From NCBI RefSeq assembly GCF_023238205.1, contig NZ_CP096659.1, forward strand, positions 1,364,001 through 1,428,000: a DNA stretch of 64,000 nt, read 5' to 3'. Positions 7,022 through 36,061 of the stretch are shown here, piece by piece. Position numbers and translations under genes: made by a program. The notes under the pieces are model-generated. The model ran no database searches. It saw only the letters and a list, made by a program, of their open reading frames with translations, and had not been told where the DNA came from. This DNA comes from Halorussus limi (GTDB taxonomy: Archaea; Halobacteriota; Halobacteria; Halobacteriales; Haladaptataceae). Every line of letters starts with the position of its first letter. Position 1 is the first letter of the stretch.

Positions 7022-7999
7022 TCAGTCTCCGGTCACGGCGTCCCGCGCCCAGAACTCGCTGCCCTTCTTCAACTTCGGAACCCACGTGTCGTCGGTCTTC
7101 GACAGGAGCGCGACCCGCGAAACCGGCACGTCGTTCAGATACTCGTGGTCCGGCATGTGTTCCTGAATCTCCTCGGCGAACGCCACGACGTCCTCGTGGT
7201 CGAGCATCGACTCGCGGGCGACTCGGTCACGGGACTCGCCGACGTGCATGTAGGACTTGAGTTCCACGAAGTCGGGGTCGGCGCGCTGGTAGAACCCGGC
7301 GTACCACTCGGGGTGGTGGACGTTCTCCCCGCCGACCAGCGTGGTCCGGAGGACGGTCCGGGTCTCGTCTTTCGCGGCCAGCACGTCCATCGTCTCGACC
7401 AGTTTCTCCCACGCGTCGTCCTCCATCGCCTTCACCACCTCGTCGAAGGTGTGGCGCTCGGGGGCGTCCACGCTGACGTAGAGTTGCGTCGGGTCGCACT
7501 TCCGGAGGACGTCGGGCCGGGTGCCGTTGCTCACGAGGAAGGTCGTGATGTCGCGGTCGTGGAAGGCGTCGATGAGTTCCGGCAGGTAGGGGTAGAGCGT
7601 CGGTTCGCCGTCGAGGCTGATGGCGACGTGGCGCGGTTCCATGCTCTCCTCGAACCGCTCGCGGGGAACCTCGTCGTTGCCGCCGAACCCCGAGAGGAGC
7701 TTCTTCTGGAGTTCGATGCTGGCGTCCACGACCGCCTCCGGGTCGTCCCATTCGACGTCCCCGAGTTCGTACGCGTGACCGGCGTGATCTCTCCAGCAGA
7801 AGACGCACCGCTCGTTGCACTTGACGACGGGCGTCATCTGGATACAGCGGTGGGACTCGATTCCGTAGAACGCGTACTTGTAACAGCGTCCCTCGCCCCT
7901 GAGAGCGTTGGCCGTCCACCCGCACGTCTGCGCGGCGGTGTGATTCTCGCTGTGGTAGTCTGGACTGTCTACCTGTTTCGGCCCGTCGGAGTCGCTCAT
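7022..7999 (-). CDS. taw1: tRNA 4-demethylwyosine synthase (Taw1/TYW1)
   Basis: 325 residues. A radical SAM enzyme that condenses pyruvate-derived carbons with N1-methylguanosine-37 of tRNA-Phe to make the tricyclic wyosine core. The radical SAM cluster motif is KCNERCVFCW (Cys-x3-Cys-x2-Cys), preceded by further Cys residues (QTCGW, GRCYKYAFYGIESHRC) that can hold the second iron-sulfur cluster of this family. HVAISLDGEPTLYPYLPELI, TTFLVSNGTRPDVL and LYVSVDAP are also typical. A TATA-like GTTTTAG lies about 25-30 nt upstream, so it may be transcribed independently of lanM, which ends 54 nt upstream. Confidence 0.95.
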   Translation of the reverse strand: MSDSDGPKQVDSPDYHSENHTAAQTCGWTANALRGEGRCYKYAFYGIESHRCIQMTPVVKCNERCVFCWRDHAGHAYELGDVEWDDPEAVVDASIELQKKLLSGFGGNDEVPRERFEESMEPRHVAISLDGEPTLYPYLPELIDAFHDRDITTFLVSNGTRPDVLRKCDPTQLYVSVDAPERHTFDEVVKAMEDDAWEKLVETMDVLAAKDETRTVLRTTLVGGENVHHPEWYAGFYQRADPDFVELKSYMHVGESRDRVARESMLDHEDVVAFAEEIQEHMPDHEYLNDVPVSRVALLSKTDDTWVPKLKKGSEFWARDAVTGD

Positions 8000-8053
8000 T
8001 GTGGCATGGATTGGGGCCGAGGCTAAAACGTTCTTCCCTCTGTTATCCGCCCG

Positions 8054-11000
8054 CTACTCGAACAGGAGCGTCGACGGGAGGTCCGGGTTCGAGACGCGCA
8101 GGAGCGCGTATCCGATTCCGCCGAGGCCCCGGAACAGCGTCGGGTCCGGTCGGGTCCGCGTTCCCGACCGCAGCGCCCACTCGTCGCCCCCGGAGACGAC
8201 GGCCCCGGCCAACCGTCTGGCCCGGCGCTCGTAGCGCGGGGCGTCGAGTTGTCGCCCCGCGCGCAGGAACAGTTCTATCCACGACGCCGTGCCACAGCAG
8301 GCGTGGTCGTACGGCGGCATCCGGTCGGTCGGTGCCTCCGACAGCGCGCGCTCGACGTCCCGGCGGACGGGACCGGCCGGGAGCGCCGTCAGCGTTCCCA
8401 GTCGCACCAGTCCGATGCCGGTCCGGCCGTTGCACCAGCCGTCGACCGTCTTTCCGGCGTGCGCCCGGAGGTCGGCCCACTCGCCCGCCCCGGCGTCGTA
8501 GTGGCCGTCCTCGAACGCGACGGCGTCCAGCGCGCCCTCCCGGAAGCGGTCCTCGCCGGTCGCCTCGGCGAGTCGCGCGAGGGCGTACCCGACGCCCCCG
8601 GCCCCGTGGCCGAACCCGGTCAGGGGCCGGTCGTCCGTGCCGAGCGGCCAGCGGCCTCCGGACCGGTCGGCCAGCAGATGTTCACCGCAGGCCACAGCAC
8701 GGTCAAGGGCGTCGCCGTCGCCCGTCCGGTCGTGGAGCGCAACGAGGGCCAGCGCCGCGCCCGCGGCACCGTCCGTGACGCCGTAGTGGTCGTCGCTGGC
8801 GACGCGTTCGTCGGTGACGGCCGCGGCCGCTCGACGGGCGTCGGTGAGGTAATCGCCGTCGAGCAGGTCGTCGAGGACGCCGAATCCGTAGACGAGTCCG
8901 CCGACGCCGGTGATGCCGAGCGATTCGTGAGCGTCGTCGTCGGCCACGGAGTTCCGGACCTCCGCCGCCGCGTCGGCCGCCAGCGCGGCGGCGTCGTCGG
9001 CGACCGACCCGTCGGCCGTTGCGGCGACTCCGGCCGCGAACACGGCGACGCCGAGACGCCCCCCGTAGAGGCTCTCGTCCATCCACTCGATTAGGACGCC
9101 GCCGTCCCTGTGGGCGGACGGCACGCACCACGCCGGCGCGCCGCCGTCGTCGACCGCCGCGGCCGACACGCGGTCGAACGCACGCCGGGCGGCGCGCCGG
9201 GCATCGGCGTCAGACAGCGGGGTCGGGTCCCCGACCGGTCGGCCGCCGGTCACGTCGGCGTGGTCGGCGCCACCGCCGCTCAACTCGCCGAACGCCAAGT
9301 CGACGTACCGACACTGCTCGCGGCGGTCGGTCGCGTCGAGCGCGCGGAGTCGCTGCTCGACCGCCGCCCGGGGCGACAGCGTGGCGAACTCGGCGACCGG
9401 GTCCGCGGGACCCCGGAGCGTCGTCCCGGTCGTCGACATGGTGAGTCGCGGCACGTCGAGTCGCTCCAGCGCCGCCCGCTCGTGGTCGTGGACGCTCCAC
9501 GGGGCGTCGACGGCCTCCGTCGCCTGCGGGCGGGCGAGCGCCTCCAGCTTACAGCCGACTTTCAGGCCCGTCCGGAGGTACTCGGGGGTCGTCAGCGACG
9601 AGAGGACGGTCCCGTAGGTCCGGGTCGCCCGGTAGATGACCCGGACCTCGGAGTCCTCGAACGCGGCCAGCGGGCCGCCCTCGGCGAGTAGGGCCTCGCG
9701 GTTGGACTCCAGTGCGTCGTGGGCCGCCCGGAGGCCCGCGCGCAGCGACTCGAAGCACTCGTCGGCGGCGACCGTCTCGCCGTCGACCCGGGGAAGGTTC
9801 TCGAACGTCTCGGCGTCGCCCTCGACGGACTCCATGTCCATCAGGTCGGTGTTGACCGCGGTGAACTCCCGCTGTTCGCCCTCCGCGGGCAGTTCGTCCG
9901 ACCCGAAGCCGCTGAGGTCGGCCCGGTCCGAGTCGGGCCGGTGGACGGGTAACAGACTGGTCCGCAGCACCGACTCCCGGAGTGCCGGCGTGGCGTCGTG
10001 GGGAAGTCGGTCGTCGGGCAACTCCGGGTGGGCGAGGGTCTCGACGTCCACGACGACCGGGTGTTCGCCCGCCGCGACGAGGTTCTCCAGATGGCCGTCG
10101 GTGAACCGGAGCGCGTACAGCACGCCGAGGAGGACTCCCGCCCGGCGGTAGTACCGCTCGGCGGCGGCGCGGTCCGAACACTGGTCCGGTTCGACCCACT
10201 CCAGCCAGCCGTACTCCTCGCGGGCCAGCACCGCGGGCCGGTCGATGGCGGGCAGGTCCGTCCGCTCGGCGAGCCAGTCCAGCAGGTCGTAGAACGCGCC
10301 TTCGACGTCGAGCGGCCGGGGCTTGTAGGCGACCCGAGCGCCCGACTCGAACGTGACCGCGAGCACCGCCCGCCCGTCCTCGTGGCGGTCGCCCGTGGCC
10401 TCCACGGCCTCGACCGCGCCGAGGTCGCCGTCGCCCAACCACTCGCGGAGGCTCTCCCGGTCGGCCGCCAGTCGCGCCGAGAACTCCTCGACCGCGGAGA
10501 CCCACTGGCGGACCGTCGTCACCAGCAACCGCGCCAGCAGCGCGTACTCCTCGACGAACCGGACGAACCCGTCGCCCAGCATCGCGTCGACGAACCCGCG
10601 GTAGTGGCGACGGTCGTCCTCCGGCGGGTCGGGGTCCTCGGCCAGCGCCAACTCGCGGTCGTGGTGGGCGACGTAGGTCTTGAACTCCACGAACAGCGGA
10701 TGAGCCGACAGTCGCGCCAGTCGCTTGTAGAGCCACGGTTCCATCGCGTCGGCGACCGGCGGCACTTCCGCGGGAGCCACCGACGGGTCGATTTGTTCTC
10801 GCGCGTAGGAGACGACGGGAGCCAGCAGGTCGACGAACGGAACGTTCTCCGGCGCGGCGGCGGACGCTTCCCCGCGGTCGGCGGCGGTCACGTCGGCCGC
10901 CACGGACTCCAGTTCGTCGACCCACCCGGGCAACTGCTCGCCCTCCGGCCAACCGTGGTTCGACACCGCGGCCCGCGCCTCGCTCTCGGAGACGCCGAGG

Positions 11001-11188
11001 TGGTCGAGGCGGCGACGGAACGCCGCGGGGTCCCCGTCGGCAACCCGGTCGCGCCACTCCGCCAGCCACTCCTCGGGGTCCTCGACCGCCGGACCGCCCT
11101 CGGCGGGGGCGTCCAGTCGCTCTCGGAGGGTCCGCGCGCGGCCGGCGATACGCCGCTTCCGGTCGGGCGCGAGCGTCCCGTCGCTCAC
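8054..11188 (-). CDS. lanM: Class II lanthipeptide synthetase LanM
   Basis: 1044 residues, GTG start. One bifunctional enzyme that dehydrates Ser/Thr of a precursor peptide and closes thioether rings with Cys. The N-terminal two thirds are the kinase-like dehydratase: GARVAYKPRPLDVEGAFYDL (phosphotransfer lysine), FTDGHLENLV (near residues 360-367), VVVDVETLAHPEL and IYRATRTYGTVLSSL. The C-terminal third is a LanC cyclase with repeated G-x-G/HG motifs (GFGHGAGGVGYALARL), WCNGRTGIGLV (Cys near 918) and YDHACCGTASW (Cys-Cys near 963). The second motif is CCG rather than the CHG of most cyclases, as in ProcM-like three-Cys zinc sites. No LanT transporter or protease gene is nearby; the likely precursor gene is at 11555-11713. 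Confidence 0.93.
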   Translation of the reverse strand: MSDGTLAPDRKRRIAGRARTLRERLDAPAEGGPAVEDPEEWLAEWRDRVADGDPAAFRRRLDHLGVSESEARAAVSNHGWPEGEQLPGWVDELESVAADVTAADRGEASAAAPENVPFVDLLAPVVSYAREQIDPSVAPAEVPPVADAMEPWLYKRLARLSAHPLFVEFKTYVAHHDRELALAEDPDPPEDDRRHYRGFVDAMLGDGFVRFVEEYALLARLLVTTVRQWVSAVEEFSARLAADRESLREWLGDGDLGAVEAVEATGDRHEDGRAVLAVTFESGARVAYKPRPLDVEGAFYDLLDWLAERTDLPAIDRPAVLAREEYGWLEWVEPDQCSDRAAAERYYRRAGVLLGVLYALRFTDGHLENLVAAGEHPVVVDVETLAHPELPDDRLPHDATPALRESVLRTSLLPVHRPDSDRADLSGFGSDELPAEGEQREFTAVNTDLMDMESVEGDAETFENLPRVDGETVAADECFESLRAGLRAAHDALESNREALLAEGGPLAAFEDSEVRVIYRATRTYGTVLSSLTTPEYLRTGLKVGCKLEALARPQATEAVDAPWSVHDHERAALERLDVPRLTMSTTGTTLRGPADPVAEFATLSPRAAVEQRLRALDATDRREQCRYVDLAFGELSGGGADHADVTGGRPVGDPTPLSDADARRAARRAFDRVSAAAVDDGGAPAWCVPSAHRDGGVLIEWMDESLYGGRLGVAVFAAGVAATADGSVADDAAALAADAAAEVRNSVADDDAHESLGITGVGGLVYGFGVLDDLLDGDYLTDARRAAAAVTDERVASDDHYGVTDGAAGAALALVALHDRTGDGDALDRAVACGEHLLADRSGGRWPLGTDDRPLTGFGHGAGGVGYALARLAEATGEDRFREGALDAVAFEDGHYDAGAGEWADLRAHAGKTVDGWCNGRTGIGLVRLGTLTALPAGPVRRDVERALSEAPTDRMPPYDHACCGTASWIELFLRAGRQLDAPRYERRARRLAGAVVSGGDEWALRSGTRTRPDPTLFRGLGGIGYALLRVSNPDLPSTLLFE

Positions 11189-11530
11189 GGCGACGCCCCC
11201 GCTGACCGTCGCGAGCCGACCGGGTTCCGTCGGCGGACCGTCCCCGGCGGGCCCCGACTGCCCGCAGTGCGGACGGGCGGGGTCACCGCCGGCGTTCGAA
11301 GTCGGTCCGTAGCGATTCGTCGTCGTCGGTCCCGCTGACCTCGGACGCAGTCGTCTCGTAACATATCGAAAGGAGGTACCATCGGCAATCAGTCGTCGTA
11401 TCGTGGAAATAACGGGCGAGCATCGACCGTCCGGCGGGTCGCGGGTTCGGCCGACCGGGTCGGGGACCGGTGGGAGTCGGCGGTCGTCGCGCCGTCTCTG
11501 ACGCCCCCGACCGAAGGTCCGCAGTCGGTC
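11189..11530. other. Gap between lanM and its upstream hairpin
   Basis: About 340 nt upstream of lanM. It holds one doubtful 46-residue minus-strand frame (listed separately) and an AT-richer patch at about 11360-11412. A GGAGGT at 11371-11376 on the plus strand has no start codon at usable distance. No TATA box clearly fits the lanM start, so lanM is probably transcribed from the lanA promoter by read-through. Confidence 0.4.
11283..11423 (-). CDS. Doubtful 46-residue ORF between lanA and lanM
   Basis: ATG at 11423, TGA at 11283-11285, 94 nt upstream of lanM. The first half contains DTTTDCRWYLLSICYETT and the second half is acidic (VSGTDDDESLR), a mix that looks more haloarchaeal than random frames here. 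No ribosome binding site or TATA box is evident. It could be a second small peptide of the lanthipeptide locus or simply untranslated spacer. Confidence 0.2.
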   Translation of the reverse strand: MLARYFHDTTTDCRWYLLSICYETTASEVSGTDDDESLRTDFERRR

Positions 11531-11550
11531 GCAGGGGACCGCTCCCCTGC
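11531..11550 (-). terminator. Perfect hairpin just after lanA
   Basis: GCAGGGGACCGCTCCCCTGC: an 8-bp GC-rich stem with a 4-nt loop starting 4 nt after the lanA stop codon (minus strand). No T-tract follows, so full termination is unlikely; partial attenuation or 3'-end protection would give more lanA than lanM transcript, as hairpins do in many bacterial lantibiotic operons. That role is inference. Confidence 0.5.
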
Positions 11551-11554
11551 GTCG

Positions 11555-11713
11555 TCAACAGCAGTGTTCGAAGCTGTACATCGAAACCGAGGGCAGGCCC
11601 GCTTCGGTCTCGTCCGGCACGTCGTGGTCCTCGTGCTGGTACTCGGCTTCGACTTCGTTACGGAGCGATTCGTCGTTGGAGTTGATTGCAACTGACATTG
11701 CATCCATATACAT
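11555..11713 (-). CDS. lanA: Candidate lanthipeptide precursor peptide (LanA)
   Basis: 52 residues from ATG 11713; in-frame ATGs at 11707 and 11698 give 50 or 47. The leader is acidic (NSNDESLRNEVEAEYQHED, then HDVPDETEAG). The C-terminus SVSMYSFEHCC contains three Ser and two terminal Cys, the residues LanM needs for thioether rings. Cleavage after Ala-Gly at about residue 39 would release a 13-residue core beginning LPSV. It is encoded upstream of lanM in the same direction, preceded by an AT-rich promoter region and an AGGTAAG possible Shine-Dalgarno 8 nt from the first ATG. A TATA box at 11725-11734 would favour the 11698 start. Precursor identity is inferred from position and composition. 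Confidence 0.7.
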   Translation of the reverse strand: MYMDAMSVAINSNDESLRNEVEAEYQHEDHDVPDETEAGLPSVSMYSFEHCC

Positions 11714-11724
11714 GAAGTCTTACC

Positions 11725-11757
11725 TATTAAAAATTTCCACTAGAAAGTAATAATTTG
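11725..11757 (-). promoter_or_regulatory. Probable promoter of the lanA-lanM locus
   Basis: On the minus strand two TATA-like sequences are present: AAATTATTA (11749-11757) and ATTTTTAATA (11725-11734). The first would give a short leader carrying AGGTAAG; the second would give a leaderless mRNA starting near the ATG at 11698. The whole gap 11714-12011 is clearly AT-richer than its surroundings and otherwise holds only chance short frames. Confidence 0.45.
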
Positions 11758-11977
11758 TGTATGAAAAGGTTGAGAACTGTAGATGCTCCGGCCCTGAGGT
11801 GGCCTATTTCGGCTGCCGACTCGTGACTAACGCCTCCGAACTGACTGGCGTCTATATCTCAGCTCCATCGCACGTATCGATGATGTTCGGATTAGAATGG
11901 TTAATTTGCTACCATATTTTAGAATGAGTGGGATTGCTGGACGATACTACCGACGAACCGCAGTATAATTGGACAAG

Positions 11978-11983
11978 TTTAAC
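11978..11983 (+). promoter_or_regulatory. TATA box of the nhaC-type antiporter gene
   Basis: TTTAAC lies 29-34 nt before the ATG at 12012; a further TATAATT is at 11964-11970. Either fits a leaderless or very short-leader transcript. Confidence 0.5.
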
Positions 11984-12011
11984 TCCCGCGCTATGAAATC
12001 AGCGGCGTGTA

Positions 12012-13574
12012 ATGGCATCTGAAACGTACGGTATCATCAGTCTGCTTCCGGCACTCCTCGCCATCGTGTTGACGCTGGTCAGCAGGCAGGTGTTACTATC
12101 GCTGTTCGCGGGCATCTGGATAGGTGCGACCATCTTGGTGGGTTGGAATCCGGTCGTCGGGGCGGCCCACTCCCTCCAGTTGGTCATCGACAACATCACC
12201 GCATCGTTCAACAGCAAACTCCTGTTGTTCACGTTCCTCTCGGGCGCGATGCTCGGGATGATATTCCTCTCCGGGGGCATGAAGGCCCTCGCAGACCGCA
12301 TCATCTCGCGTATTCGAACCCGCCGTCAGGCGGAACTCGGGACGAGCATCCTCGGAATGCTCATCTTCGTCGATTCGTACGCGAGTACGATGATTACCGG
12401 GTCGGTGATGCGGCCGATTACCGACAAGTTCGACATCAGTCGGGAGAAACTCGCGTACCTGCTCGACTCGACCACCTCGCCGGTCGTCAGCGTCGCCGTC
12501 GTCTCGACGTGGGTTGGCTTCGAGGTCGGTCTCATCAAAGAGCAGTTCTCGGCGCTCGGCATCGAACGGAGCGCGTTCGTGGTGTTCCTCCAGAGCATCC
12601 CGTTCCGGTTCTACAGTCTGCTCGCGGTAGCGCTCGTGTTCATCGTCGTCATCACCGGGTGGAACTTCGGCCCGATGAAGCGCGCGGAGAAGCGCGCGAA
12701 GGAGACGGGGAAGGTCCTCCGGGACGACGCCGACCCGCTGCTGGAGACCCGCGAGGAGGACATCGTCACGCCAGACCACGTCGATTCGCGCTGGTGGTAC
12801 TTCGCGGCGCCCATCGTCGCGCTCGTGGTCGTCACGGGTCTCGGACTCCTCACCTCCGGCGGATGGCCGGGCGTCGCGCCGGTCGAAGCGCTGAAGGACG
12901 CCGCGACGGCCGACGCCATCCTCTGGGGCGTCTTCTCGGCCTGCGCCCTCCTGTTGGCCATCCTCGTCGGCCACGCTCGCGTCGAACTCGAAGACATCAG
13001 CGACTCTATCTTCGAGGGGTTCAAGATGGTGATGTTCCCGGTCGCGGTCCTCTCGCTGGCGTGGACCATCGGGTCGGTCAGCGAGGCGCTCGGCGTCGGC
13101 CCCTACGTCGTCTCCGTGGCGGAGGGCGTCATCACCGCCGAACTGCTCCCCGCGGTCGTCTTCCTCGCCGCGGCCATCATCTCGTTCAGCATCGGTACCT
13201 CGTGGGGGACGATGGGCATCATGTTCCCCGTGGCCGTGCCCCTCGCGTTCAACCTCGGCGCACCGCTTCCGGGCGCTATCGGCGCAATCCTCACCGGGTC
13301 GCTGTTCGGCGACCACTGCTCGCCCATCAGCGACACGACGGTGCTGTCGTCGATGTTCGCCGGGGCCGACCACGTCGACCACGTGAACACCCAGATTCCG
13401 TACGCGGTCCTCTGCGGCGTGGTCGCGACGGGACTGTTCCTCGCGAGCGGGTACGGCGTCTCGCCGCCGCCGCTCCTCGCCGCGGGCGTCTTCGCGCTCA
13501 TCGCGGCCGCGTACGGCCTCTCGGAGTACACGACGGTCACGATGCCGAGGGTCTTCAGTTCGGACGCCGACTGA
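12012..13574 (+). CDS. nhaC: NhaC-family Na+/H+ antiporter
   Basis: 520 residues with about a dozen hydrophobic segments. Family motifs: FVDSYASTMITGSVMRPITD, STTSPVVSVAVVSTWVGFE, SFSIGTSWGTMGIMFPVAVP and GSLFGDHCSPISDTTVLSS, the last being the signature of NhaC-like exchangers. A central acidic/basic loop (about residues 215-260) is cytoplasmic in the expected topology. It should exchange internal Na+ for H+, a central need in a high-salt cell, although related members exchange other solutes. It is divergent from the lanA locus across a 298-nt AT-rich gap and ends with a T-tract at 13617-13621. Confidence 0.88.
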   Translation: MASETYGIISLLPALLAIVLTLVSRQVLLSLFAGIWIGATILVGWNPVVGAAHSLQLVIDNITASFNSKLLLFTFLSGAMLGMIFLSGGMKALADRIISRIRTRRQAELGTSILGMLIFVDSYASTMITGSVMRPITDKFDISREKLAYLLDSTTSPVVSVAVVSTWVGFEVGLIKEQFSALGIERSAFVVFLQSIPFRFYSLLAVALVFIVVITGWNFGPMKRAEKRAKETGKVLRDDADPLLETREEDIVTPDHVDSRWWYFAAPIVALVVVTGLGLLTSGGWPGVAPVEALKDAATADAILWGVFSACALLLAILVGHARVELEDISDSIFEGFKMVMFPVAVLSLAWTIGSVSEALGVGPYVVSVAEGVITAELLPAVVFLAAAIISFSIGTSWGTMGIMFPVAVPLAFNLGAPLPGAIGAILTGSLFGDHCSPISDTTVLSSMFAGADHVDHVNTQIPYAVLCGVVATGLFLASGYGVSPPPLLAAGVFALIAAAYGLSEYTTVTMPRVFSSDAD

Positions 13575-13616
13575 CGACTCCGGCAGACGACTTCGACTGA
13601 CGCTTTCGACCGACGC

Positions 13617-13621
13617 TTTTT
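13617..13621 (+). terminator. T-tract after nhaC
   Basis: Five T residues 43 nt after the nhaC stop codon, a plausible archaeal U-tract terminator. Confidence 0.35.
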
Positions 13622-13736
13622 CTCGAACCCGCTCTCGCGTCACAGTTCGGCGGACCCCGCCGAGGCGTGCTATCTGGCGGTCGGCGGGCGGTTCGCGGAG
13701 AAAGATACATGTGGAGCCGTTGAGACGAACTGGACG

Positions 13737-15809
13737 ATGAAGTGGTCGCCGACCAGACGTGAGTTCCTCGGCGTCGCCGGTCCGGGCAGTGTCGCGTCGT
13801 CGGTCGTCGCCGACCGCCCGGCGAGTCTCGGGAACGTCTCACTCGGGAACGCGTCCGACGCCGTGCCGGACCATCCGCTCGCGCCGACGCCCGAGGTCGA
13901 GTGGTCAGTCGATACCGACACCGAGAAGCCGCTACTTCGGCGGTCGGAGACCGGCGACGCGGTCTACCTCGGGACCGAGACCGGCGTTCGGGGGTTCTCG
14001 ACCGACGGCACCGAGCGGTGGCGCCGCCGGATTCCGAGGGCCGACGCCGACCGCCCGGTCGAGATACATCCCGGAACCGGCGCGGTCTACGCCGAAGGGA
14101 AGGCGCAACTCCGCGCTCTCGACGCCGAAGACGGTCACACCCGCTGGCGGTACCCCGGCGAGAGCGGGACCGCCGAGAGATACGTGGACGTCTCGCTGGT
14201 GACTTCGGAGACGGTCTTCCTGAGAGACGACGGCATCGCGGCGGTCGCGGCGTCTGACGGCCGCGAGCGGTGGCGATTCCGACCGGACGAGTCGCTCTGG
14301 TTCCCCTCGCGCATCGACGGTGACGACCTCTACGTCGGGACGACCAGCGGCCACCTCTACGCCCTCTCGACCGCCGACGGGAGCGTCCGCTGGCACGTCG
14401 ACCGCTCTGCGGACGGTGCCCCGCGGTTCTCGGTCGCCGGCGTGACCGACGACGCCGTGTTCGCGTGGAACTACGATGCCGGGGAACTGTACGCCTTCGA
14501 CCGCGACGACGGGGCGCTCCGGTGGCGATTCGACGCCGAGGTAAACGAGAGCGGGTTTCCCGGGGCGGTTCGGGACGAGGCGGTGTACCTCGGCGACGGT
14601 TCGCTGGTCCGCGCGATTTCGCCCGCCGACGGGACCGAACGCTGGCGATACGACGCGGGGAGGCCGGTCGTCGGTTGGCCCCAGTTCGACGGCCGGACCG
14701 CGTACTTCGGCGCGAGCGGCAGCGTCCACGCGGTTTCGACCGACGACGGAACCGGCCGGTGGCAGTTCTCCACGGGGACGGACCGAGCGTACGTCGCCGG
14801 CGTCGCCGACGGGACGGTCGTCGCGCACGGCAGGACCGACGCCCTCTACGGACTGGACGCGGACCGCGGCCACCTCCGGTGGCGGTTCGACTCCCCCGGC
14901 CACGCGCGGTGGTTGCCGCAGGTCGACGACGACAGGGTCTACTTCGCCACCGAGTCGGGCACCCTCTACGCCCTCTCGTCGCCCGGTTCGACGCCGCTCT
15001 ACGACGCCGCTCGGACTCTCACCTCGCCGGCGGGCCTCGCGGTCGGCGGTCTCCTCGGCGCGGCGACTCTCGCCGGCGCCTACCGCCGCCGAAGTCGCGA
15101 CGGGGACACCCCCGACGAACCGGCCGAACCGACTGAACCGACCCGGGTCGCCGACTTCGAACTCCGGGACGTTCTCGCCCGGAGCGCCGACGCCGAGGTC
15201 CGCGACGCCCGGACCCCGGCGGGCGAGCGCGTCGCGCTGAAACGCTTCGACCCGGACGCAATCGCCGACGACGCCTTCGAGTCCGCGGTCGAGACGTGGG
15301 CCGCCCTCGACGCGCCGGGCGTCCTCGCGGTTCGCCGGCGGGGAACCGACCCGGTGCCGTGGGTCGCCACCGACCCGGTGGACGCATCGCTCGCCGACCC
15401 CGCCGACTCGTCGGTCGTTGACCTCTCGACTGCCGACCTCGCCCGCGCTCTCGCCGACGCGGCCGAGACGCTCCACCGCGCCCACCGCGAGGGCGTCGTC
15501 CACGGCGCTCTCGGTCCCGAGAACCTCTGGTTCGCCGACGGCGGGGTCCGAGTCGGCGGTTGGGGCCTCGCCGCGGCGCGCCGAGGCCAGTCGAGCGTCC
15601 GGCCGCCGGAATCGGACGCCGACCCGGAGACCGCCGACACCTACCGACTCGCGGCGGCGGCCGACGACCTGCTCGGCGAGTCCGCAACCGACCCCGACCG
15701 ACCCGACGAACTCGACGGCGTACTCTCGCGGGCGCTCGCGGCCGACCCCGCCGACCGCTACGGTTCGGCGCTCCGGTTCGCCGACGCGCTCCGGTGGGCG
15801 GTCAGGTAG
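13737..15809 (+). CDS. Exported PQQ-like beta-propeller fused to a cytoplasmic pseudokinase
   Basis: 690 residues. N-terminus has a Tat-like motif (TRREFLGVAG, residues 6-15). Residues about 50-425 are repeats of the pattern vYlGt..G.lyAls..DG..rWr, a PQQ/WD-type beta-propeller. A hydrophobic segment (SPAGLAVGGLLGAATLAGAY, near 431-450) is followed by Arg-rich residues, so the propeller lies outside and the rest inside. Residues about 474-690 resemble a Hanks-type kinase: ALKRF retains the ATP-binding Lys, but the catalytic loop reads VVHGALGPENLW (Asp and Lys lost) and the DFG position reads VGGWGLA. It is therefore a probable pseudokinase sensor. Neighbours give no pathway clue. Confidence 0.85.
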   Translation: MKWSPTRREFLGVAGPGSVASSVVADRPASLGNVSLGNASDAVPDHPLAPTPEVEWSVDTDTEKPLLRRSETGDAVYLGTETGVRGFSTDGTERWRRRIPRADADRPVEIHPGTGAVYAEGKAQLRALDAEDGHTRWRYPGESGTAERYVDVSLVTSETVFLRDDGIAAVAASDGRERWRFRPDESLWFPSRIDGDDLYVGTTSGHLYALSTADGSVRWHVDRSADGAPRFSVAGVTDDAVFAWNYDAGELYAFDRDDGALRWRFDAEVNESGFPGAVRDEAVYLGDGSLVRAISPADGTERWRYDAGRPVVGWPQFDGRTAYFGASGSVHAVSTDDGTGRWQFSTGTDRAYVAGVADGTVVAHGRTDALYGLDADRGHLRWRFDSPGHARWLPQVDDDRVYFATESGTLYALSSPGSTPLYDAARTLTSPAGLAVGGLLGAATLAGAYRRRSRDGDTPDEPAEPTEPTRVADFELRDVLARSADAEVRDARTPAGERVALKRFDPDAIADDAFESAVETWAALDAPGVLAVRRRGTDPVPWVATDPVDASLADPADSSVVDLSTADLARALADAAETLHRAHREGVVHGALGPENLWFADGGVRVGGWGLAAARRGQSSVRPPESDADPETADTYRLAAAADDLLGESATDPDRPDELDGVLSRALAADPADRYGSALRFADALRWAVR

Positions 15810-15905
15810 TCCGGTGGGGGTCCGTAGTCTGGCGGGTGGTCCGGTAGTCCGGCGAGCGGTCGGGTAGTCCGACAGGCGGTCGGGTAGTCCGACAGGCGGT
15901 CGGGT
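15801..15905 (+). repeat. 20-bp tandem repeat starting at the pseudokinase stop codon
   Basis: Units at 15861-15880 and 15881-15900 are identical (CGGGTAGTCCGACAGGCGGT). Degenerate copies precede them at 15841-15860 and 15821-15840, a weaker one at 15801-15820 spans the TAG stop, and a partial unit starts at 15901. The period is 20 bp. No spacers, so it is not CRISPR. Confidence 0.75.
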
Positions 15906-16002
15906 GGCGAACCGGATTCGGGGCCGACCGGTCGGGACCGCGGGGACGGACTAACGCGGTTCAGAAACCCATTTACCCGCCGGTCGAAAACCAACGGGTA
16001 AC

Positions 16003-17778
16003 ATGTATCTCCAGTTCCGGGACGACGTGGAGGACGCGCTCGTCTCCGCGCTCGAAGCGCTCGACCTCCCGACCGACGACCTCGGCGTCGAGGACCCGCC
16101 CGAGGGCGTCGAGGCCGTGCTGGCCAGTAGCGCGGCGTTCCGCCTCGCCGGCGAGGTCGGCGCGCCCCCGCCGCAGGTCGCGGGGCAAATCGCCGACGAA
16201 ATCGACGTGAGCGAGTACGACCTCGTCGCTGACGCCTCGGCGCAGGGCCCCTACGTCAACTTCGCGCCGAGCGACGCCTACTACGAGGGCACGGTCGAGG
16301 AGGCCCAGCGCGCCGACTTCGGCCACCTCGAACCGACCGGCGAGGAGGTCGTGGTCGAACACACCTCCGCGAACCCGACCGGTCCGGTCCACGTCGGCCG
16401 GGCGCGCAACCCCATCGTGGGCGACGCCGTGGCGCGAGTTCTGTCGTTCGCGGGCCACGACGTGGACCGCCACTACTACGTCAACGACGCGGGTCGCCAG
16501 ATGGCCGTCTTCACGTGGGCCTACGAAACCTTCGACGAGTCCGACCTCGACGCCGACCCCGAACGCGACAAGGACGACTACGACCTCGTGCGCTACTACC
16601 GGAAGGGCAACGACTTCCTCGAGTCGGGCGACCCCGACGCGGTCGAGGAAGCCGAGGCCGAGATTCAGACCATCATGCAGGGCCTCGAAGCGGGCGACGA
16701 GGAGACCTACGAGCGCGTCCAGACGGTCGTGGACACCGTCCTCGGCGGGATGCGTGAGACGCTCGACCGCCTGCCCGCGGAGTTCGACGAGTTCGTCAAG
16801 GAGACCCGGTTCCTCCGCGACGGGTCGGCCGACGACGTGGTCTCGCGCCTGAAGGAACTGGACGAGGCCGTCTACGAGGAGGAGGCGTGGCAACTCGACC
16901 TGGAGGCGTTCGACGTCGAGAAGAACTTCGTGTTCCTGCGGTCGGACGGCACCACGCTCTACGCGACCCGGGACCTCGCCCACCACGAGTGGAAGTTCGA
17001 GAACTACGACCGCGCCGTGACCGTCCTCGGCGAGGACCACAAGCTACAGGCCCGCCAGATGAACGCGACGCTCGACCTGCTGGGCAACGACACCGACCAG
17101 TTGCGGCAGGTCATCTACTCCTACGTCAATCTCCCCGAGGGCAAGATGTCCACCCGGGCGGGCACCGGCATCGATTTGGACGACCTGCTCGACGAGGCCA
17201 TCGACCGCGCCCGCGAGGAGGTCGAGACCCGCCTCGACGACCGCATCCGCGACGACGACCTGACCGACGAGGACGTAGAGCGCATCGCCGAGCAGGTCGG
17301 CATCGGCGCGGTCCGCTACGACATCGTCTCGAAGCAACCGACGAAGGCCATCACCTTCGAGTGGGACCGCGCGCTCGACTTCGAGGCCCAGAGCGCGCCC
17401 TACGTCCAGTACGTCCACGCGCGGTGCTGCGGCATCCTCGAAGAGGCGGGCATCGAACCGGAGGGGTCGGCCGACGTCGCCGAGGAGTTCGACGCCTCGC
17501 TGCTCGAAACCGAGGCCGAGCGAGAACTGCTGGAGGTCGTCGCGCGCTTCCCCGCCGTCATCGAGGAGGCCGCCGAGGACCTCGAACCCCACGTGGTCGC
17601 GACCTACACCCGCGACATCGCCGAGACGTTCAACACCTTCTACCGGGAGTGTCCCGTTCTCGCGGACGACGTGGACGACGACCTGCGCGACGCCCGCCTC
17701 GCGCTGGTCGCGGCGTCGAAACACGCGGTCGGCAACGCCCTGCAGGTCCTCGGCGTCGCCGCGCCCCGGTCGATGTAG
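16003..17778 (+). CDS. argS: Arginyl-tRNA synthetase
   Basis: 591 residues. Class I synthetase that charges tRNA-Arg. The N-terminal tRNA D-loop-binding domain (about 1-110) is followed by [20 protein letters not shown], containing the HIGH-equivalent HVGR, the Rossmann catalytic domain, and [14 protein letters not shown], the KMSKS-equivalent loop. The C-terminal helical anticodon domain ends with the usual [13 protein letters not shown]. Length and ends are normal, with no insertion or intein. It converges with the small membrane protein at 17779-17916 with no base between stop codons. Confidence 0.97.
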
Positions 17779-28622: not shown

Positions 28623-28640
28623 CTTCAATCCGGATTTAAG
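28623..28640. promoter_or_regulatory. 18-bp palindrome upstream of the membrane-tethered regulator
   Basis: CTTCAATCCGGATTTAAG fits CTTnAATCCGGATTnAAG with only the two n positions asymmetric. It covers the stop codon of the S8 protease gene and lies 56-73 nt upstream of the regulator's ATG, just above a TATA-like GTTTAG. Candidate operator. Confidence 0.5.
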
Positions 28641-29925
28641 CCGTCCCGTTGCGCTCGACGCCGACGGCCCCGAGGGGTCGCAGTCGCCCGTGCCCCGTGA
28701 CGGGCTCCGGACCTCGGTCGCCGACGTCGACTGCGGTCTCCTTCAGCCGTCGCTCCACCTGTGGCGGAGCTAGACCGGGATTGGCGTCGCGAACGAGCGC
28801 GGCGATTCCGCCGGCGTACGCCGCGGCCGCCGACGAGCCGTCGAACCCCTCCACGTCGGTCACGTCGGGGTGGCTCGGCGCGACGAGGTCCACGCCGTTC
28901 CGGTCGTCCGGGGTCGGCCCGCGGGAACTGTACGGTTCGACGCGCCCGGCGCGAGCGTCGTACGCCCCGACAGAGACGACTTTCGTCGCGCTCGCGGGCG
29001 CGACGACGCTCCCGGCGGCGCGAGCGTACCGGAACTGGTGAGTGGGCGACGACAGTTCGAGGCGGGCGTCGGTGGCGTTCGGCGGCCCGCGAACCTCGAC
29101 GTAGTACGTCCCCGACTGGACGCGAGCGACGATGCGCTCGTTCGGCACTCCGTCGCCGGGGTACGGAACCGAGCGAGCGACCAACCGGCGCTCGTTCCCG
29201 TCCGTCCAGTAGAGGTCCGCGGTGTAGTCCTGCTCGCGGTGAGCGTCGTCCCACGACAGCCAGACCGTCACGTCCCGGCCCCCGCCGCGGAGGTAGTTTC
29301 GCGTCCCGTTTCCGAACGCGAGCGTGCCGCCCTTTGCGGGTCTGTACTGTCCCGACCAGTGACTCCGCGCCAGATTGCCCGCCGGTGAGACGAAGACGGT
29401 TCCCCTCTCGGTCGCGCTCTGAGCGACCTCGGCGACGGCCGACGTTCCGTCACCGGGCATCCCGTAGAACGAGACCGGCGCGACGACGACGTCCACGTTC
29501 CGCGCGACGAGCCATCCGACCGCGCGTCGGTAACTCTTCGGCGAGTCGACCGTCGCCAGATAGAGGTCGGCGTCGGGTGCGATGCGCGCGACCGTCTCGG
29601 CCGCCGCGGTCCCGTGTGTCCCGCCGTCGCCGTAGACCGACGTGTCGGAACCGAACGCCCGGGCGTCGACGACCCGCCCGCGGAGCGCCCTCGCGCCGGT
29701 ACTGAACCCGGTCACGTCCACGACGCCGACAGTCACGTTCTCGCCGGTCACGCCCGCGTCGTGGAGCGCCGAGACGGTCGGACCGACGTCGCGGACTTCG
29801 GTCGGAGTCGCCGACTGGCCGCCGTCCGCGGACAGCGAAACCGCGAGGAGACCGAGACCTCCGGCGAGGACGGCGACGCCCAGGACGACGACCGCCAGCG
29901 CTCGCCGGGACGCGGGGGAGTCCAT
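28636..29925 (-). CDS. Membrane-anchored subtilisin-like (S8) serine protease
   Basis: 429 residues. An N-terminal hydrophobic segment (ALAVVVLGVAVLAGGLGLLA) acts as signal anchor. The catalytic triad is visible: Asp in VTVGVVDVTGFS, His in GGTHGTAAAETV and Ser in GFDGSSAAAAYAGG. The oxyanion Asn lies in VFVSPAGNLARSHW. An insertion between about residues 210 and 300 (VTVWLSWDDAHREQDYTADL and following) forms an extra beta-rich region that resembles a pre-peptidase-type domain. Catalytic domain should be outside the cell. Substrate unknown; the gene lies upstream of a membrane-tethered regulator. Confidence 0.88.
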   Translation of the reverse strand: MDSPASRRALAVVVLGVAVLAGGLGLLAVSLSADGGQSATPTEVRDVGPTVSALHDAGVTGENVTVGVVDVTGFSTGARALRGRVVDARAFGSDTSVYGDGGTHGTAAAETVARIAPDADLYLATVDSPKSYRRAVGWLVARNVDVVVAPVSFYGMPGDGTSAVAEVAQSATERGTVFVSPAGNLARSHWSGQYRPAKGGTLAFGNGTRNYLRGGGRDVTVWLSWDDAHREQDYTADLYWTDGNERRLVARSVPYPGDGVPNERIVARVQSGTYYVEVRGPPNATDARLELSSPTHQFRYARAAGSVVAPASATKVVSVGAYDARAGRVEPYSSRGPTPDDRNGVDLVAPSHPDVTDVEGFDGSSAAAAYAGGIAALVRDANPGLAPPQVERRLKETAVDVGDRGPEPVTGHGRLRPLGAVGVERNGTA

Positions 29926-35189: not shown

Positions 35190-35816
35190 TTACTCGTCCA
35201 CTGGGTCGCGTGCGACGGTCGTGATAGCGATGTCCGGGTCGTAGTTCGGACCCATCTCCCGGTGGCGGATGTCGGTGTAGCCCGCCTCGCGGAACATGCG
35301 GTCGGCCTCCTCTCGGTCGTAGAACAGCATGATTGCGTCGGCGACTTTCTGCATCACCGACGACTTGGGATAGTTCGGGCCGACGACGAGAACTTGCCCG
35401 CCGGGCTTGACGACGCGGCGCATGTCTCGCAGGGCGACGACCGGGTTCGGCCAGTACTCGATGGACCCGGAGGACCACACGACGTCGAAGCTGTCGTCCT
35501 CGAACGGCAGGCGCTCGGCGTCCCCGCGGTAGAAGCTGACGGGGTCGTGCTTGCCGAGTTTGTCCCACGCCTTCTCCAGTTGGTGAACGCTCTGGTCGAG
35601 GCCGTGGACGTTCTGGGTGTGTTCGAGGAGTCCTTCGGTAGCGAACCCGGTACCACACCCCACGTCAAGCACTCGGTCGCCCTCCGCTACGTCGAGCATC
35701 GCCAGCGCCTCGTCTCGCATCTCCTCGTTCCAGATGAACGGGTTGACGGTGTCGTACACCTTCGAGAGGTACTTGTAGAAGAGCCGGGCCCGGCTCTTGT
35801 CTTCGAGGATACCCAT
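35190..35816 (-). CDS. SAM-dependent methyltransferase (quinone-type)
   Basis: 208 residues from ATG 35816. Class I methyltransferase: motif I VLDVGCGTGFATEGL, motif II acidic HGLDQSVHQLEKAW, GDAERLPFEDDSFDVVWSSG and VVKPGGQVLVVGPNYPKSS. The N-terminal SRARLFYKYLSKVYDTVNPF and the hydrophobic region after motif III resemble the methyl-phytyl/solanyl-benzoquinol methyltransferase group, so a role in menaquinone or related lipid-quinone methylation is a fair inference. A short palindrome-like GAGCCGGGCCCGGCTC lies inside the gene start (35781-35796) and is probably coding coincidence. Confidence 0.82.
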   Translation of the reverse strand: MGILEDKSRARLFYKYLSKVYDTVNPFIWNEEMRDEALAMLDVAEGDRVLDVGCGTGFATEGLLEHTQNVHGLDQSVHQLEKAWDKLGKHDPVSFYRGDAERLPFEDDSFDVVWSSGSIEYWPNPVVALRDMRRVVKPGGQVLVVGPNYPKSSVMQKVADAIMLFYDREEADRMFREAGYTDIRHREMGPNYDPDIAITTVARDPVDE

Positions 35817-36061
35817 TGCCCGACAGTTCGTACCGCCGGCCAAATAATCCTGCTATTCGAGTTGGTCGCGTAACGGAACCTATCACCGTGAGAGAGGTAT
35901 CCGAATCGTATCGCGAACGAGGAACGCAGTGACGTACGAAAACCGAGAGTGGACCAAAACCGGTGCAGTGGGCGGCGTGACGACTCCCGCGTTCTGGTGG
36001 AGCTTTCGCGGGGCCGCGCCGCTCGCGGTGCGGTCGGCGGAAAAGGTCGTTCCGCAAGTAG

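Follow-up and report, generated by a model that had tools for sequence, protein, structure and literature searches.

The lanM gene of Halorussus limi and the small ORF preceding it form a real, intact and largely known locus of the archalan beta type, not an uncharacterised system. Very probably, this class II lanthipeptide locus is served by the full pathway proposed below. The window, i.e. the whole stretch of DNA that was analysed, comprises 64,000 nucleotides. What the analysis itself showed is the gene content, the orthology, the invariance of the ring residues, purifying selection and the absence of LanT. The locus contains the following features:

8054–11188, minus strand: lanM, class II lanthipeptide synthetase with dehydratase, LanC-like cyclase and CCG zinc motif (TIGR03897, DUF4135, LANC_like)
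11530–11551, minus strand: hairpin with a 9 bp stem just past the lanA stop codon, fold z -2.5
11555–11698, minus strand: lanA, precursor gene in its 47-aa form MSVAINSNDESLRNEVEAEYQHEDHDVPDETEAGLPSVSMYSFEHCC, conserved from the ATG of MSVA... in G124 and G058
11558–11599, minus strand: predicted core peptide GLPSVSMYSFEHCC, rings Ser4-Cys13 and Ser6-Cys14 by homology, 13 of 14 residues as in archalan beta
11600–11698, minus strand: acidic leader peptide (MSVA...TEA), positions conserved across four precursors, cleavage site by homology with archalan beta
11713, minus strand: in-frame ATG, alternative lanA start yielding a 52-aa form (11555–11713)
11725–11733, minus strand: TATA-like box TTTTTAATA, 35 nt before the ATG of the 47-aa form, assigned by consensus match alone, with the same sequence and spacing in G124

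Synthetase, core peptide and rings

LanM is encoded by an uninterrupted ORF (8054–11188, minus strand) with a GTG start and is a full-length protein of 1044 aa. It matches NCBIfam TIGR03897 with 643 bits (cut-off 304) as well as Pfam DUF4135 and LANC_like, each over its cut-off. These profile matches place dehydratase and LanC-like domains in a single bifunctional polypeptide and bear out the original prediction of a 1044-residue LanM with a dehydratase and a LanC cyclase. The closest solved structures are LicM2 and CylM, and the domain architecture is that of bacterial LicM2, CylM and ProcM. LanM contains the dehydratase motif DGHLEN as well as WCNG and CCG, the cyclase motifs that provide the zinc ligands; all are kept in the orthologues. 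The CCG form is present in each of the 23 haloarchaeal LanM rows examined, which comprise 19 distinct sequences; it was reported for ProcM and for Halorussus and linked with promiscuous enzymes (PMC10027976). The source genome encodes one LanM.

The core peptide GLPSVSMYSFEHCC differs from that of archalan beta from Halorussus salinus YJ-37-H, GLPSASMYSFEHCC (PMC10105419), by one substitution, A5V, and has the family pattern GLPSxSMYSFEHCC with the same ring residues Ser4, Ser6, Cys13 and Cys14. The leaders are about 85% identical overall; the window product is predicted from its genes. Archalan beta was isolated, and partial reductive desulfurization combined with MS/MS revealed intertwined Ser4-Cys13 and Ser6-Cys14 rings and one methyl group on Gly1 (PMC10105419). 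When the mass of this structure was recomputed, 755.3016 was obtained compared to the reported 755.3012. Rings, core start and N-methylation have been shown in the literature for this close homologue. By analogy, the window product is predicted to contain intertwined Ser4-Cys13 and Ser6-Cys14 thioethers, and GLPSVSMYSFEHCC minus two H2O should yield an [M+2H]2+ ion of 762.309, or 769.317 if N-methylated. Two earlier statements have to be revised. Precursor, ring pattern and role had been considered not evident; in fact, the core is that of archalan beta with A5V, and the literature describes the rings of archalan beta and an anti-haloarchaeal activity of crude extract (PMC10105419, PMC12144867). 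Furthermore, the leader had been proposed to end with Ala-Gly, whereas homology with archalan beta indicates that it most likely ends with Ala and that Gly is the first core residue.

Further archalans beta and the similar litlans of H. litoreus have been described, and archalan beta3 is, like medlan A and larlan A, a DADC (two-chain) lanthipeptide (PMC12144867). Two-chain precursor compositions with common modifications were tried on its ion of 453.6800, and the sole match within 3 ppm was GLPSASM + CC minus two waters plus methyl and acetyl. This fit implies that YSFEH is excised. Archalan beta3 and the window peptide derive from one precursor family, and YSFEH is retained unchanged in the window core, where an equivalent cut would result in an [M+2H]2+ of 467.695 (453.680 + 14.016, the shift caused by the Ala-to-Val exchange at charge 2). 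Trimming to the DADC form is therefore possible, as a prediction from archalan beta3 only. That it yields the main mature product, i.e. that host proteases excise YSFEH after ring formation and leave GLPSVSM and CC connected by two thioethers and possibly methylated and acetylated, is a real but lesser possibility. The excised segment is more variable across the precursors than the retained parts, but this argument relies on four sequences. In addition, only classical forms were obtained from the recombinant alnBeta strain (PMC12144867), and the excising protease may be absent from the source strain.

Precursor gene, relatives and selection

The lanA gene is located upstream of lanM on the same strand. 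The 52-aa ORF at 11555–11713 (minus strand) ending with SVSMYSFEHCC is present as originally described. Comparison with relatives showed that its frame is conserved only from codon 6 (MSVA...) on and not upstream, and the TATA-like sequence GGAAATTTTTAATA is found at an identical distance of 35 nt from the codon-6 ATG in the window and in G124. Because only this part is conserved and the box precedes it in both genomes, lanA most likely comprises 47 codons (11555–11698) rather than 52. Its transcript would have a very short untranslated leader or none. The hairpin downstream of the lanA stop codon is matched by one in G124 at the corresponding position (z -1.2). It might be a lanA/lanM attenuator, a function suggested by its position, and one may speculate that it keeps lanA in excess over lanM.

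The precursor was searched for in all 18 genomes of the genus and in 392 genomes sampled from the order. Confident matches were confined to the source genome, G124 and G058 (3/18 genomes of the genus). In the latter two, the peptide precedes an orthologous LanM in the same orientation and position (E values 1e-22 and 1e-17), so that the lanA ORF is more than a chance ORF. The expectation that the peptide is conserved with its Ser and Cys residues beside related LanMs thus held, and the ring Ser and Cys residues are invariant. All other profile matches to the precursor were weak, with E values above 0.004, and were put down to chance. Near-exact 8-residue pattern scans of the genome contigs yielded no match, with patterns too strict to show absence.

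G124 has the exact archalan beta core beside a LanM at the same tyw1 site as in the window. It contains six LanM loci, and six BGCs were reported for H. salinus; from core and count we infer that G124 is this species, in which case the archalan beta LanM is orthologous and occupies the same chromosomal site. G058 encodes two tandem precursors ending with GLPSASMYASEFCCGYSG and ARPSASMFATELCCGLSG and a similar LanM at the tyw1 site. It is probably Halorussus litoreus, the species of the lit BGC, whose litlans were reported to have a thioether pattern similar to archalan beta (PMC12144867). With the window, G058 shares related precursors, of the type PSASM...CC, and an orthologous LanM beside tyw1. 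Compared to the window, its precursors are in tandem, carry a C-terminal GxSG tail and have a different segment between Met7 and Cys13. The three LanMs share about 73–82% identity by region and form a clade with support 100/100, far removed from the remaining LanMs of the genus (44% identity or less for most of them).

In the alignment of four precursors from three genomes, core residues Ser4, Ser6, Met7, Cys13 and Cys14 are invariant and Ser9 varies, as one would expect if rings form at Ser4 and Ser6 only. On codon comparison with G124, the closest relative, lanA is under purifying selection (dN 0.08, dS 0.65, dN/dS about 0.12, a rough value from 47 codons); for lanM, dN was 0.12 and dS 0.34. 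That the strain has stopped using its archalan beta locus and carries a silent or decaying relic of it is improbable. Its patchy occurrence in 3 of 18 genomes, split LanM genes in some relatives and the failure to detect sallans, pellan and litlans in wild-type strains (PMC12144867) would be in line with decay, but LanM is uninterrupted with intact motifs, lanA is under purifying selection, and promoter and spacing are conserved. That the small ORF arose by chance and the true LanM substrates are encoded elsewhere, as the CCG motif of promiscuous enzymes able to modify distant precursors might suggest, is extremely improbable and effectively refuted by the near-identity of the core with an isolated lanthipeptide, next to conservation beside orthologous LanMs in two other genomes and a single LanM in the genome.

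In G114 (C1:219495-222418; L072:245-3339), LanM is encoded by two overlapping ORFs, a dehydratase half of 634 aa and a LanC half of 448 aa, possibly a natural two-protein LanM or a frameshifted gene. They are preceded by two short precursor-like peptides ending with ADNWCSITA and HDAWCTITATKE. In G118 (C6; L076:3673-4001), a tandem pair of short peptides, with the leaders VDQFEDKH and VDQFEAKH and the ends AECFSLTCFVGSDSS and KACGSLTCFWDSDSN, is encoded beside another split LanM; both look like lanthipeptide precursors.

Locus boundaries and partner genes

The order tyw1, lanM, lanA is common to the window, G124 and G058. Beyond lanA, the genes differ: nhaC in the window, a gene for a bPH_2-domain protein in G124 and one for a PQQ-repeat protein in G058. 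Nine genomes of the genus that lack this lanAM were examined around tyw1. Neither lanA nor lanM is present there, and five of the nine (G066, G176, G118, G130 and G114) have nhaC at 200–320 bp from tyw1 with nothing in between. By gene order, lanAM beside tyw1 is an insertion or a patchily lost unit. The search for Peptidase_C39, the protease domain of LanT, was negative in all 18 genomes of the genus including the source genome (8/14 controls were positive). Since this domain is lacking and the genes beyond lanA differ, lanA-lanM is, on comparative grounds, the conserved unit.

A LanT with a C39 protease domain is typical of bacterial class II systems, albeit not obligatory. The window system differs from them by the lack of such a LanT in the genus, a short acidic precursor and the lack of a clustered immunity gene: within 7 kb of lanAM, no gene for LanT, LanP or a typical immunity protein was detected. 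This agrees with the original prediction for the flanking 7 kb, and its proposal of a two-gene class II system without dedicated transporter or protease is supported by gene content and the missing Peptidase_C39. Without LanT in the genus, leader removal and export would proceed via general host proteins, in keeping with the way in which lar and alnBeta have been reconstituted (PMC12144867).

A methyltransferase and a peptidase were placed in the alnBeta BGC (PMC10105419, PMC12144867); neither gene was recognised beside lanAM in the window. Three candidate partner genes were considered. A UbiE-type methyltransferase gene (35190–35843) is situated about 23 kb from lanAM, with a homologue about 30 kb away in G124; it is conserved, but at 23–30 kb its role in N-methylation is unproven. 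A subtilase gene (28636–29925), about 17 kb from lanA and also nearby in G124 and G058, is not lanA-specific as a maturation protease: clear orthologues (51% identity or more) are encoded in 11/18 genomes compared to 3/18 for lanA. NhaC was rejected as exporter or immunity protein: its gene is missing at the other two lanAM loci and adjoins tyw1 in five genomes without lanAM.

The interval between tyw1 and argS (window 7022–17778) ranges from about 2 to 15 kb across the genus with conserved ends. Its content varies and includes nhaC, a PQQ protein gene, lanAM, a dipeptide-type ABC transporter set and other genes. Beside argS, a 690-aa protein (13737–15809, plus strand) with an N-terminal PQQ-type beta-propeller and weak C-terminal protein-kinase-like matches is encoded. 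Rfam and tRNA scans of the window yielded no matches.

Proposed pathway and its meaning

For the source strain, we infer expression, modification, export and activity as follows. Transcription of lanA would start at its own TATA promoter, leaving little or no untranslated leader, and translation would yield a 47-aa precursor, whose acidic leader would be recognised by LanM. LanM would dehydrate Ser4 and Ser6 of the core and then add Cys13 and Cys14, generating two intertwined lanthionine rings. The leader would be cut off after Ala by host proteases from other loci, releasing GLPSVSMYSFEHCC minus two waters, and the product would probably act on neighbouring haloarchaea, as does the crude extract of the alnBeta expression strain, which inhibits haloarchaea at 100 ug/mL (PMC12144867). 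Co-expression of lanA-lanM pairs in Haloferax volcanii resulted in product with generic host peptidases (PMC12144867). A wider scheme, according to which lanA-lanM is a self-sufficient two-gene cassette, generic host proteases perform both leader removal and in-ring excision, YSFEH/YASEF/FATEL is a disposable spacer between the fixed SxSM and CC, and the DADC form is the selected end product instead of a by-product, is rather unlikely.

The archalan-beta-type locus described here enlarges the archalan beta family by one member, a natural A5V variant with exactly predictable product masses. When the three loci are compared, the conserved unit shrinks to lanA and lanM, and LanT is missing throughout the genus. 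This gives a sharper form to the question through which host proteins archaeal lanthipeptides lose their leader, are cut within the rings and leave the cell.
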